This document shows positions 47,637 through 51,854 of a DNA stretch of 51,854 bases, piece after piece. Each line of letters starts with the position of its first letter. Position 1 is the stretch's first letter. Source of the DNA: Nitrospirota bacterium. Its GTDB lineage: Bacteria > Nitrospirota > Thermodesulfovibrionia > UBA6902. The notes beneath the pieces were generated by a model, which was given only the letters and a program-made list of their open reading frames with translations, was not told the origin of the DNA and did no database searches. The position numbers and the translations under genes are program-made. The stretch lies in the NCBI GenBank assembly GCA_016214845.1, contig JACRMS010000022.1:1-51854 (forward strand), in the 5' to 3' direction.

Positions 47637-49013
47637 ATGCCAGTGATACTTGTTGTCGACGATGAGCCGCTTCAGAGGGACATTTTAAAGACCATCCTCG
47701 ATTCCGAAGGCTATGAGACACATACCGCCGCTTCAGGCAAAGAGGCGTTGGCTATTATCGCGGGCACACAGCCGGATGTGATACTTACCGACCTGAGAAT
47801 GGAAGGCATGGACGGGATCGAGCTGCTTGATGCAATTCCCAAAACACCCTTTGAGCCTTCCATCATTATCATAACCGCGCACGGCACGATCTCCTCGGCA
47901 GTAGAGGCGGTGAGAAAGGGCGCCTTTGATTACCTGACAAAACCTCTCAATAAGGACACTCTCCTTTTGAACGTTCGCAGGGCGGTTGAACGGGCGACCC
48001 TGCTGAGGGAGAACATTCATTTGCAGAAAGAGCTTTTCAAGAAATTCAACATAGAGGGAATAGTCGGCAAGTCCCCGAAGATGCAGACAGTGCTGGAGGT
48101 CCTGAAAAAGGTGGCGCCTTCTGCCGTGACAGTGCTCATCAGGGGGGAAAGCGGCACAGGGAAAGAGCTTGTAGCAAGGGCCATCCATTATAACAGCCCG
48201 AGGCGCACAAAACCCTTTACAGCGATCAACTGCGCGGCCATCCCCGACAACCTTTTTGAAAGCGAACTCTTCGGCTACGAGGCCGGCGCGTTCACCGGGG
48301 CCGTCGCGAGAAAGGACGGCCTGTTTAAAATAACTGACACCGGCACGCTGTTTCTCGATGAGATAGGAGACCTCTCTTTGCCGATGCAGTCGAAACTCCT
48401 TCGCGTGCTTCAGGACAAAGAGATAAGAAGGGTTGGCGGCAAAGAGTCGATAAAGGTGGACGTGCGGATCATCGCGGCCACAAACAAGGACCTTGAGAAA
48501 GAACTCGCCGCGGGGACTTTCAGGGAAGACCTTTTTTACAGGCTCAAGATAGTCAACATCGGACTTCCGCCCCTGAGAGAAAGGGCGGACGACATACCGG
48601 AACTCGCGAGGTTTTTCATTAATAAATACAACAAGGAGTTCGGCAGAAGAATAAAAGCAATCGAGCCTGCCGCCCTGAAGATGCTCAGCGAATATCACTG
48701 GCCCGGTAATATCCGCCAGCTTGAGACGGCCATAGAGCGCGCGGTGCTGATGAATGATAAGGACACGATAACGGTCAGCGACATTAAAAATGAATTGTGG
48801 ACAGGCCAGTTAAAAACTTCATTCGACCTTGATATCCCCGACGAGGGAATGGACTTTGAAAATCTCGAAAAGGAGCTCATCAAAAAGGCGATGGCAAAGG
48901 CAAACGGCGTTGCAACAAAGGCCGCCAAATTCCTCGGGATGAGCTACAAGACCTTTTTGTACAGGATGGAAAAGTTCAGCCTCAACGACTATTCAACAAA
49001 GAAGAGCGAGTAG
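47637..49013 (+). CDS. sigma-54-dependent response regulator (NtrC family)
   Basis: The 458 residues contain a receiver domain with phospho-acceptor Asp52 (ILTDLRMEGMDG), a sigma-54 AAA+ domain with Walker A GESGTGKE, the sigma-54 contact loop GAFTGA and Walker B LFLDEIGDL, and a C-terminal Fis-type helix-turn-helix (ANGVATKAAKFLGMSYKTFL). It works with the adjacent kinase and activates sigma-54 promoters; the match at 42417 is one candidate target. Confidence 0.95.
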   Translation: MPVILVVDDEPLQRDILKTILDSEGYETHTAASGKEALAIIAGTQPDVILTDLRMEGMDGIELLDAIPKTPFEPSIIIITAHGTISSAVEAVRKGAFDYLTKPLNKDTLLLNVRRAVERATLLRENIHLQKELFKKFNIEGIVGKSPKMQTVLEVLKKVAPSAVTVLIRGESGTGKELVARAIHYNSPRRTKPFTAINCAAIPDNLFESELFGYEAGAFTGAVARKDGLFKITDTGTLFLDEIGDLSLPMQSKLLRVLQDKEIRRVGGKESIKVDVRIIAATNKDLEKELAAGTFREDLFYRLKIVNIGLPPLRERADDIPELARFFINKYNKEFGRRIKAIEPAALKMLSEYHWPGNIRQLETAIERAVLMNDKDTITVSDIKNELWTGQLKTSFDLDIPDEGMDFENLEKELIKKAMAKANGVATKAAKFLGMSYKTFLYRMEKFSLNDYSTKKSE

Positions 49014-49055
49014 AGCGCCGCTTACTGTTGCGCTTCTGCTCTTTTGCACTTTCAT
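49013..49055 (-). repeat. GCGCTTCTGCTCTTTTGCAC word repeat
   Basis: Reverse-complement variant of the repeats at 8482-8515 and 11591-11629, directly after the response regulator stop codon. Confidence 0.6.
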
Positions 49056-49073
49056 GTGCATGAGCACGGGATC

Positions 49074-49130
49074 TCGGATTATTACGTGGTAAAACGCCCC
49101 TTCAAACTCTATCCTCGGTTTCCTTGCCAT
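49074..49130 (-). pseudogene. N-terminal remnant of a REP-associated tyrosine transposase (RAYT)
   Basis: The minus-strand ATG at 49130 opens with MARKPRIEFEGAFYHVIIR, the conserved start of Y1-type REP-associated transposases. Homology is lost after about 19 codons, where a short repeat follows. Upstream, near 49162-49186, is GACAAGTCTGACCCCGTTAG (complement GGGGTCAGACTTGTC), a sequence often found before RAYT genes. The catalytic His-x-His and Tyr regions are absent, so this is a dead fragment. Confidence 0.7.
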
Positions 49131-49369
49131 GCGTCACCTTAGCAGGGCACACTCTCAAATGTCAATAGACAAGTCTGACCCCGTTAGTCCCCGGGTCGAA
49201 TAAGAATATTGGTTATCAAGTATAACGAAAGTAAGCATTGACCGGAAGACAAAAATAACGGGACTTCCGTTCCGGTTTAAGCCCTCATCCCTGAATCAAC
49301 AGGATTCCTGCGTCTCAAAACAGGCAGAGTATGAAAATATTTTTATTTTTTATAAAAAAATACTTGACA

Positions 49370-49508
49370 ACGTGGGAAGTAGTCCTGATCACTGACGAGT
49401 GCCATGTAAGACGTTAAAGAGCATGAAACTGATTTGCACATCTCAAATCACTGCTCATCTGTAAAAGCGTCCTGTGGCACTCGTTCACGTGCATCTGATT
49501 GTTAGGGC
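49370..49508 (-). other. putative attC site a, after cassette 1
   Basis: TGACGAGTGCC (49393-49403) pairs with GGCACTCGTTCA (49476-49487) with one extra A on one side, like an attC extrahelical base; the inner arms continue with GACG and CGTC. The right end is GTTAGGGC (49501-49508), which overlaps the cassette 1 stop codon. The outer left box is degenerate, so the left limit is approximate. Confidence 0.65.
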
Positions 49509-50197
49509 CTTATTATGTGTGAGCCCCGAATAAATTTCTCTGTATTGTTATACTTGTCTGCATATAAATTGCCTGCTTCTATCTTCATCTCAGATAGAGC
49601 TTCTAAGTAAATATTCTCACCGTTTATATCACTGTTACTGAACGCAAAAGCATATACATTATCTGGTTCAGAATGAGTAATAACTCCAGGAATATCGACT
49701 TCCCGGTAATGTAATCTTCGAGTAAGACTTAGTTCTGTATTCTCGAACCTTCTGAATATGTTCGGAGTAAGAATAAAGCCTAACCAATTTTGCTTTTCAC
49801 CATATTCGTATGCATCAATGAGTGCCTCACCTAAGAATATATTTTTTTCTCTTTGAGAATATAACTTACCAATGGTCATAGCTCCACGTACAGGAATATA
49901 ATGGAGAATAAGTTTTTGGAAGAAATGCCTGGATGCTTGTTCCACTAAAGCAAAATCTTGATTGCTATCTGATTGTGAATAAATAATGAAAGTGTCCGAA
50001 AACCATGAATAAGAAATCCCATATTTCTGTTTGAACCCCACATTTTGCTCAATTGCTTTTAATACATCTTCATAGATTAGAAGCACATATTCGATCAGAT
50101 CTTGATGTTTTTGCACAAGTTTTTTAAATCCCATTAAATCAAAATAACTCAACCATAGGTTTTCATATCGTGCATTTGCTACCAACGTATTCTCCAT
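49502..50197 (-). CDS. cassette 1: class III nucleotide cyclase-like protein
   Basis: A 231-residue soluble protein. YFDLMGFKKLVQK near residue 18 looks like the metal-binding strand of class III cyclases (F-D-x-x-G-F), WFSDTFIIYS near 66 like the second metal-binding hairpin, and PVRGAMTIGKLY then IFLGEALIDAYEYGEKQNWLG (about 103-141) like the R-G-x-x-x-G...G-x-A...A block. No recognised sensor domain is attached. Whether it cyclises a nucleotide is unknown; the cyclase-like reading rests on motifs seen by eye. Its stop codon lies inside the attC box, and the coding region is AT-richer than neighbouring genes. Confidence 0.6.
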   Translation of the reverse strand: MENTLVANARYENLWLSYFDLMGFKKLVQKHQDLIEYVLLIYEDVLKAIEQNVGFKQKYGISYSWFSDTFIIYSQSDSNQDFALVEQASRHFFQKLILHYIPVRGAMTIGKLYSQREKNIFLGEALIDAYEYGEKQNWLGFILTPNIFRRFENTELSLTRRLHYREVDIPGVITHSEPDNVYAFAFSNSDINGENIYLEALSEMKIEAGNLYADKYNNTEKFIRGSHIIRP

Positions 50198-50206
50198 TTT
50201 TATGTT

Positions 50207-50381
50207 GCCCTAACGAGCCTGTAGAATAAGTCTCCAGTTCGAAAAATCAATTTGATTTTGGGAATCATAAACCCTTGCCTCGATCGAGATCATTCAATAC
50301 AGCGCATTCTGAGCATCCGTTTTTTTGCTCAACCTCTCGCAAGTTTTCAGGCACTCGTTCACTCCAATGATTTGTTATCTG
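50207..50381 (-). other. putative attC site b, between cassettes 1 and 2
   Basis: The left end GCCCTAAC (50207-50214) is complementary to the right end word of cassette 1, and the right end is GTTATCTG (50374-50381). The right half carries GGCACTCGTTCAC, the same stem word as site a. Stem pairing with the left half (GAGCCTG and CAGGCACTC) is poorer and lopsided. Confidence 0.55.
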
Positions 50382-50941
50382 TTCCTTTCTTGTGAAAGCA
50401 ACAACTGATCATCAAGTGCTCGCATAAGTATTTTGTGAACTTTTCTTCCTTTTTCAGTAGTTTTATATTGCCAATAATTACCGCTGGGAATTTTTGCAAT
50501 ATTAGGTCTATCTGGTGGTGGTTCTTTTGATACTGATAAAAGTTCAATTAATCCCCGAGAGTGTAGTTCTTGCATCGTGGTTCTGGAATCAAAAGTTTCA
50601 AGAGGAGGGGTATATTGAGTCTTATCTCCATATTCACCACCAATAACAAGAAAATGATAAAATGCATTGAAGGACAATCCCTGTAGAGCATCTTTAATAT
50701 CCTTATCACCAGTTCGTTGTGCAAAATCGTCTAATTGAAATTTAATATTACCTATGCTAAATTGTGAAGACTTACTCATCCTCTCAGTCGCGGTTATTAT
50801 TAAACTTTTTAAAGGAATATAAAAAAGGAGTATGATTATTAAGATGATTTGAGGATGTCCAAGGCTTTTAAAGAAATCAGTAACTCCTTTTATGATATTA
50901 ATCAGCTTATCGAAACATTTCATGTTCCTGATTTCCTCCAA
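50375..50941 (-). CDS. cassette 2: membrane protein with possible C-terminal winged helix
   Basis: I do not recognise the family. The 188 residues have a hydrophobic segment (about 28-50) after a charged N-terminus and then a cytoplasmic-looking part. The last 80 residues (TTMQELHSRGLIELL, then YWQYKTTEKGRKVHKIL) resemble a winged-helix hairpin and recognition layout as in MarR/PadR-like domains, but no closer claim is possible. The ATG may be at 50941 or 50923 (MKCFDK). The stop codon overlaps the attC box. Confidence 0.55.
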   Translation of the reverse strand: MEEIRNMKCFDKLINIIKGVTDFFKSLGHPQIILIIILLFYIPLKSLIITATERMSKSSQFSIGNIKFQLDDFAQRTGDKDIKDALQGLSFNAFYHFLVIGGEYGDKTQYTPPLETFDSRTTMQELHSRGLIELLSVSKEPPPDRPNIAKIPSGNYWQYKTTEKGRKVHKILMRALDDQLLLSQERNR

Positions 50942-50978
50942 AAATTATATGACATTTTGCCACTGCAATATGTTTAGA

Positions 50979-51113
50979 CAGATAACGTAGAAGTCAGTGA
51001 ATCGAACCACTGAAGCTCATCAAAGAGCAAGAAACCGATTCGCTGACTTCAAACCGAACACATGCTGAAAAAGTGTCTTGTGGTTCGATTTCACTGCACT
51101 GACTTGTTAGATG
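50979..51113 (-). other. putative attC site c, between cassettes 2 and 3
   Basis: CAGATAAC (50979-50986) and GTTAGATG (51106-51113) are the outer boxes. CAGTGAATCGAACCAC pairs with GTGGTTCGATTTCACTG with a single unpaired base, the clearest attC-like stem of the three. An inner loop of about 60 bases includes further short hairpins. Confidence 0.7.
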
Positions 51114-51116
51114 TTT

Positions 51117-51701
51117 TTATCTATCTCCTTTATATTCAATAGGAGTTGTATCAATACCAATGTCTGATCTAACCTGATTTATCATATTCAAGGCTAAGTT
51201 CCTTACTTCGGCCCACTTATACTGTCTACGACCTTCAATTACAAACAAAAGATGATCTACAAGTTGATCATAAGCATCCATAACCCTTTGAGGCGCAAGA
51301 GCTCCAAGATAAGCATAAACCTTCATTCGACGTCTTTCAAAATCGGCAATTGCTTGGGGAGTAATTGTGCTCCCATTAACTATTGCTATATTGATATCCA
51401 TTAAAAAATCCACAACCATGTCAGCGATTTGCCGATAAATAACAACTTTATCACTGTGCCCTCTTAGAAAAGTTTCTCTATATATATCAAATTCCGTTTT
51501 CAGAGCACTTATATTTCTATCATTTTGGTGCTGTAGATCAGCTCTAAGTGTCGCAAGTTCACGATCATGTTTAGCTTTTTCATCAGCCATTATTCTATTT
51601 GCCCAGACTTTTCCAAGCCAACTTGAAAGTCCAAACAAGACTGCACCCGCTACGCCAGAAGATGCAATTATAGCCGCTGCAATTTCAAATATTTCTTTCA
51701 T
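51117..51701 (-). CDS. cassette 3: membrane and coiled-coil protein
   Basis: The 194-residue product has an N-terminal hydrophobic segment (about 6-27, IAAAIIASSGVAGAVLFGLS), a coiled-coil-like stretch (about 40-72, DEKAKHDRELATLRADLQHQ) and a helical C-terminal part (about 75-180). Proteins with this layout are common hypothetical cassette products; function unknown. The cassette begins with CATCTAAC at 51711-51718, the complement of its end word at 51106. Confidence 0.6.
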   Translation of the reverse strand: MKEIFEIAAAIIASSGVAGAVLFGLSSWLGKVWANRIMADEKAKHDRELATLRADLQHQNDRNISALKTEFDIYRETFLRGHSDKVVIYRQIADMVVDFLMDINIAIVNGSTITPQAIADFERRRMKVYAYLGALAPQRVMDAYDQLVDHLLFVIEGRRQYKWAEVRNLALNMINQVRSDIGIDTTPIEYKGDR

Positions 51702-51718
51702 ATATCTTTACATCTAAC

Positions 51719-51832
51719 GATATCTATACTACGCAGCAGGAAAAGTAAAAAGGACCGGGAAATTGCTAAGTGAGTAATTATAAACTTCCCCATGGTTGTT
51801 TGTCACGAAAATAATTCAAAAGGAGGGAAGTT
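51719..51832. other. sequence beside the first cassette, possible attI side
   Basis: These 114 bases lie on the upstream side of cassette 3. I see no attC-like palindrome in them, so this may be the array's attachment (attI) side rather than another cassette. Nothing here proves that. Confidence 0.3.
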
Positions 51833-51854
51833 ATGAAGTACAGGAGCTACAAGA
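51833..51854 (+). CDS. 5' end of an unidentified gene cut by the window edge
   Basis: A strong ribosome site (AAAAGGAGGG) precedes the ATG; only MKYRSYK is visible. In integrons the integrase is transcribed away from the cassettes, which is this position and direction, but seven residues do not identify it. Confidence 0.4.

Follow-up and report, generated by a model that had tools for sequence, protein, structure and literature searches.

Two kinds of mobile element at the attC joints of a cassette array in a Nitrospirota bacterium

Background

The attC sites of integrons are known targets of several mobile elements, and we describe here an array of gene cassettes whose joints are occupied by elements of two kinds, at the right end of a 51,854-nucleotide contig of a Nitrospirota bacterium (JACRMS010000022.1, assembly GCA_016214845.1). 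We refer to this whole contig (C22 of its genome, G000) as the window. Among insertion sequences (ISs), an attC-targeting group of IS1111 elements, the IS1111-attC group, has been described (Tetu & Holmes 2008; Post & Hall 2009, both as cited in PMC11187229), and the IS1111 group has a long non-coding region downstream of its transposase gene (PMC11187229, PMC11208160). Group IIC-attC introns are likewise attC-specific and insert at the core of the site (TTGT/T) (PMC7923331). IS1272, a member of the IS1182 family, has been reported to insert at stem-loops, replacing them and leaving no target duplication (PMC5678879). Papers on ISs in integrons cite IS1111 alone for attC targeting, and a search of the open full-text literature (subscription literature and ISfinder lay outside its scope) returned nothing relevant that links IS1182 with attC or with chromosomal integrons. 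The IS1182-type element and its miniatures described below thus seem not to have been reported before as integron-targeting.

As a cassette array, the locus resembles chromosomal integrons and CALINs (clusters of attC sites without a nearby integrase) in its attC fold, its matching boxes, its minus-strand open reading frames (ORFs) of unknown function, and its combination of conserved joints with unique genes. It differs from them in that only one of its three attC sites is complete, its joints are interrupted by two kinds of mobile element, and the contig end hides its integrase status.

Cassettes and attC sites

The end of the window is confirmed as the distal tail of an integron gene-cassette array of a Nitrospirota-type bacterium. 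Its three cassettes, all on the minus strand, carry ORFs of 194 amino acids (aa) (cassette 1, 51117-51701), 188 aa (cassette 2, 50375-50941), and 231 aa (cassette 3, 49502-50197). The initial annotation, made from the sequence alone, had read these units as cassettes that begin and end with the same 8-base word, and the word pairs are all present: GTTAGGGC at 49501 with its complement at 50207, GTTATCTG at 50374 and 50979, and GTTAGATG at 51106 and 51711. Agreement within units is complete (8/8 bases in 3/3 units), and each word occurs a single time per strand within 49001-51854. On the cassette strand, the R' box of cassette 3 (50207-50214) reads GTTAGGGC, the same as the box in its R'', and that of cassette 1 (51711-51718) reads GTTAGATG. 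In relatives, the five variable box bases are identical in 5 of 12 neighbouring pairs as against 1.6% of unrelated pairs, and in at least one neighbouring pair that does not agree (L228) a miniature inverted-repeat transposable element (MITE) separates the true box, which does match. Agreement of boxes within a unit is therefore a real property of such arrays in relatives, and its occurrence in all three units of the window (chance about 4e-6, the product of the 1.6% background) is far beyond chance. That each cassette starts with the box that recurs in its attC is what recombination of the three as circles would be expected to give. The ORFs of cassettes 3 and 2 stop within boxes, at 49502 and 50375, as the annotation had also said.

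None of the cassette ORFs has a confident match in Pfam, NCBIfam, or PADLOC. Cassette 1 belongs to no confident family and cassette 2 has no family match above cut-off, while the product of cassette 3, of unknown function, weakly matches phrog_23933 (E=1.7e-10) and has motifs (FDLMGF..SDTF..VRGAMTIG) that we take to resemble those of nucleotidyl-cyclase-like proteins. When the 2.2-kb array was searched as DNA against 60 relatives, the attC and MITE sequences recurred and the cassette genes were found in none (0/60); the pattern named by the annotation as contrary to an integron, the same genes side by side in many genomes, was thus not seen.

The folds of the joints were studied with an alignment of 30 sites from other genomes, gathered by similarity to two sites of the window (a and c) and to one site on contig C36, from which a covariance model (R1) was built without sequences of the bacterium's own genome. 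The consensus fold has 21 pairs in three helices, 12 of them with changes on both sides, and 97.8% of paired cells are complementary as compared with 81% after shuffling and 24-36% with the partners slid. The arms co-vary (ACGAGTGCC/GGCACTCGT, ATCGAACC/GGTTCGAT, and TGCAGACC/GGTCTGCA) and leave one base unpaired, as in folded attC; together with the covariance model, this bears out the stems with one unpaired base that had been proposed for sites a and c. R1 matches site c at 50980-51112 (minus strand, 129.4 bits, E=8.6e-39) and site a at 49377-49507 (minus strand, 103.2 bits, E=1.8e-30), with no match at the remaining joint, site b. These matches are not independent of sequence similarity, because the training sites had been gathered by similarity to a and c, whereas the covariation is independent. 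About nine good R1 sites lie in the genome, on C22, C36, C3, C28, C30, and C39, and in relatives the same attC family adjoins divergent intI genes (L046, L048, L050, L053, and L054). On the class 1 integron attC sites of blaIMP-1 and dfrA17, R1 gives weak matches (E about 1e-3) with exact limits. A scan for strict-box AAC..GTT duplexes recovered the class 1 control sites; its separation of the window from background was too weak, and the covariance model was used instead.

Of the three attC sites originally proposed, two thus stand as attC-like. Site c is complete (50979-51113, minus strand; R' 50979-50986, R'' 51106-51113). Site a (49382-49508, minus strand; R'' 49501-49508) has had its own R' replaced by the right end of an IS. 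Site b is the scar of a MITE insertion and a deletion.

An IS1182-type transposon at the integrase core

At site b, a truncated MITE (50215-50350, plus strand), comprising the first ~136 base pairs (bp) of a ~158-bp element, adjoins the R' box at its AAC and is followed by a remnant of attC (50351-50381, minus strand) that retains the right arm and the R'' box (50374-50381), the left arm and centre being deleted. The MITE is 99% identical to a complete copy on C36, and the complete element has inverted ends, GAGYYTGTAGAAWAAG and CTTTTTCTACAGCTTC, after which come AAC and an attC stem. The arm of site b matches other genomes from query base 849, which is position 50350 of the window. A deletion would thus have taken the right end of the MITE together with the left arm of attC, and given the anatomy of the joint and the lack of an R1 match, the joint of cassettes 2 and 3 probably no longer folds as attC; the region folds mildly better than shuffles (z = -1.9). 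Among plasmids the MITE had no match, and the transposases found there were distant IS1182 relatives, at most 47% identical among the matches listed. In viral contigs, the end pattern of the MITE was not found.

The MITE belongs to a transposon of ~1.84 kb, probably of the IS1182 family, whose terminal inverted repeats (GAGYYTGTAGAAWAAGTC) are common to autonomous copies and MITEs. When GTDB genomes were scanned for YAAC followed by the end sequence, at least 116 stretches were returned, from Nitrospirota, Desulfobacterota, Gammaproteobacteria, and other groups. The shortest copies measure about 108 bp and the longest 1.87 kb; the long ones encode a DDE transposase of 514-540 aa, and elements of 108-700 bp share only their ends with the autonomous copies. 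The transposase exceeds the cut-offs for DDE_Tnp_1_6 and DUF772, and transposases of different lineages, 52-65% identical, show the same insertion habit.

Because the GTDB scan had required YAAC, a second search for ends, free of that requirement, covered 61 relatives and 296 genomes of the phylum. AAC stood directly before the end in every copy read, nearly fifty in all; GTT was seen only where one of these copies was met from its opposite side. Past the second end, AAC follows in 58 of 62 copies. This AAC...AAC repeat is direct rather than inverted, so that AAC would belong to the target and not to the inverted repeats, and it is probably a 3-bp target duplication at the integrase core. When the flanks of each copy are rejoined, arms pair as in attC at p<=0.05 in 38/62 cases, with about 3 expected, and several of the copies without significant pairing are cut, nested with an IS110-type element, or degraded. 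The target consensus is RYYYAAC, with G as the next base in 45/54. On the side of the copied GTT, the element end supplies GTTRRR in 53/54 copies and the full GTTRRRY in 24/54. The longest ORF runs in the cassette direction in each of the 11 copies that exceed 1.5 kb. Judged from these sequence patterns, the transposase would appear to recognise attC, either as sequence or as a folded hairpin, and not merely to tolerate it; insertion may restore a usable R' box (GTTRRR), leaving an interrupted attC that could still recombine.

Compared with IS1272, the element has a transposase of probably the same family, terminal inverted repeats, and a similar preference for palindromic or stem-loop targets; here, however, the attC stem is kept, AAC is repeated, and the position is always the integrase core. 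Our tentative proposal, which we rate slightly below an even chance, is that a widespread group of IS1182-type transposons and MITEs targets attC at the integrase crossover and duplicates AAC, with ends that rebuild GTTRRR, so that recombination at the site remains possible and the transposon travels within mobile cassettes. On this view, a single nucleotide of attC would be the common target of a DDE transposon, an RNA-guided IS110 element, and, as the literature shows, group IIC introns.

Several points weigh against these interpretations. The score of the transposase against the curated IS1182 model (NF033551) is 269.4 bits, missing the cut-off of 270 by 0.6 bits. The covariance model was our own and not that of IntegronFinder. 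The genomes are mostly fragmented metagenome assemblies, the window's own copies are all truncated, and our search for an orthologous empty site found only paralogous, uninterrupted attC sites. Finally, for some copies, for example in Desulfospira (L152, L160, and L184), AAC is present at the insertion but an attC stem is not clearly seen, and the minimal target may be AAC rather than the entire attC. This last observation, and the fact that AAC are the sole invariant letters, agree with an explanation in which AAC or YAAC is a mere short target duplication of IS1182-type elements and attC is over-represented only because it is numerous in these genomes. We regard this as unlikely: YAAC is very common in genomes, yet the insertions share the RYYY left flank, the G to the right, and the pairing of arms described above, and a symmetric AAC/GTT target would not give one orientation of the transposase relative to the site in 11/11 copies.

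An improbable reading of the 158-bp repeat at site b is that it represents a structured RNA, a remnant of a group II intron, or a part of attC itself. It is hairpin-rich and always lies within attC. No Rfam family was matched, however, and the repeat shares its terminal inverted repeats with transposase-coding IS1182-type copies of 1.8 kb, the 108-700 bp elements having nothing but these ends in common. Group IIC-attC introns, which share with the elements described here a specificity for attC and insertion at its core, are retroelements with ribozyme domains, and no intron signature was seen here.

An IS110-family element bounding the array

The array is bounded on both sides by parts of an IS110-family element. 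Its left end occupies 51719-51854 (plus strand), where the transposase gene begins at 51833 (MKYRSYK..) and is cut after 7 codons by the contig end. A remnant of its right end (49192-49381, plus strand; ...TTGACAACGTGGGAAGTA) abuts site a, the transposase part being gone. In complete elements of relatives (L063/G020), the left end leads into a protein of 453-454 aa with DEDD_Tnp_IS110 and Transposase_20 domains, which matches NF033542 (163.6 bits), named in NCBIfam as an IS110-family RNA-guided transposase. In G013, a complete element lies between an R' box and the stem of an attC site, and its right end (TTGACAACATGGGAAGTA) is the same as that of the window; right ends in other genomes match that of the window at 69-80%, from query position 43. 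A search of the bacterium's own genome with PF01548 gave no match, because all its copies are cut by contig ends.

The initial annotation had advised looking for intI, and none was found in the window, nor was attI; right of 51718 lies the left end of the IS, inside which the contig ends. Since an ORF begins there on the opposite strand, as that of intI would, this region could be taken for attI followed by the first part of a divergent intI, with the array proximally complete. We reject this reading and give it next to no weight, because the last 136 bp of the window recur at six places in the same genome, each behind a different YAAC word and beside different cassettes and, once, a non-integron gene, and because an IS110 transposase follows them in relatives. 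Within the genome, IntI-like sequence from near the end of such a gene appears only twice, as identical C-terminal stubs at contig ends (C27:1-137, L011; C39:120673-120807, L010). Each stub encodes the 3' end of a tyrosine recombinase (..ELLGHKHVETTMIYTHVLREMSNIPKSPLDNLY) and is followed by unrelated genes; the likely origin of the pair is an integrase gene present in two copies that the assembly collapsed.

Every junction seen of the IS110-type element, 16 at left ends and 7 at right ends, places the insertion point at YAAC|G. Two unrelated kinds of mobile element therefore insert at the same nucleotide of cassette joints. The IS110-type element has in common with the IS1111-attC group a DEDD transposase of the IS110/IS1111 superfamily, a non-coding region of ~500 nt downstream of the transposase gene, a left end of ~110 nt, and an insertion point at one end of attC, with no long duplication. 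It differs in being a distant family of Nitrospirota-like genomes, in that a seekRNA is only conjectured, and in that no clear pair of subterminal inverted repeats was seen in the inverted-repeat list. We would place it among the attC-targeting IS1111 elements as a new and distant member, presumably guided by an RNA from its own 3' non-coding region. In that region, TACGCTTCGTCTAACNGAT is invariant in four right ends (L075, L076, L087, and L091) and includes a copy of RYYYAAC; it is a possible guide segment, which we offer as a lead only.

Other copies and neighbouring repeats were also noted. On C18 (1-140; L039, L045), an IS110-type left end is joined to an mscS-like gene at CTGTTAGGCG, outside attC, at the word GTTAGGC. 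In G002 (L074, L249), IS110-type copies are inserted in the AAC created at an IS1182-type MITE end, as nested attC parasites. Positions 49154-49185 of the window (AATGTCAATAGACAAGTCTGACCCCGTTAG..) recur in many relatives, often as inverted ends ~1 kb apart (for example C17:46062 and 47036), and are the end of another repeat, which truncates the right end of the IS. On C36 (8100-8170; L042), a palindromic repeat (GGGACACATCCCGTATTT..AAATACGGGATGTGTCCC) directly follows a truncated IS110-type left end.

A proposed history of the array

The best explanation as a whole, to which we assign a probability of about 0.9, is a cassette array whose joints were later invaded by two attC-homing elements. 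IntI would have captured three circular cassettes, one after another. Later, elements homing on the R' core of attC (RYYYAAC|G on the top strand; GTT, the IntI cut site, on the cassette strand) would have invaded the joints. The IS110-family element may have inserted at two of them, leaving its right end at site a and, at the other, the left end that is now the contig end, while the IS1182-type MITE would have inserted at site b before both its right end and the left arm of attC were lost by deletion. In the latter case, we propose that the transposase finds attC through its boxes or through the hairpin that it forms when folded, makes a 3-bp staggered cut at the crossover GTT, and inserts the element; the stem would then remain on one side, and an R'-like box would have been rebuilt. 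A reading without integrons, in which the units form an ordinary operon or island and the palindromes are terminators, is scarcely credible: the window holds neither intI nor attI and the attC model is not a curated one, but the model matches are strong, boxes pair within units, relatives link the sites to intI, and novel genes alternate with conserved joints.

Conclusions

Integrons spread adaptive genes through recombination at attC, and the elements homing on these sites influence which cassettes remain mobile. Where MITEs split sites, automatic counts of attC and automatic cassette boundaries can be wrong. If the proposed behaviour of the IS1182-type elements is true, a cut-and-paste transposon that inserts at the integrase crossover and leaves a box-like sequence behind would represent a new way to ride with cassettes. 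The lineages that carry it are rich in integrases and extend from Nitrospirota to Desulfobacterota and Gammaproteobacteria; this spread would make the recognition of a structured recombination site by a DDE transposase testable.
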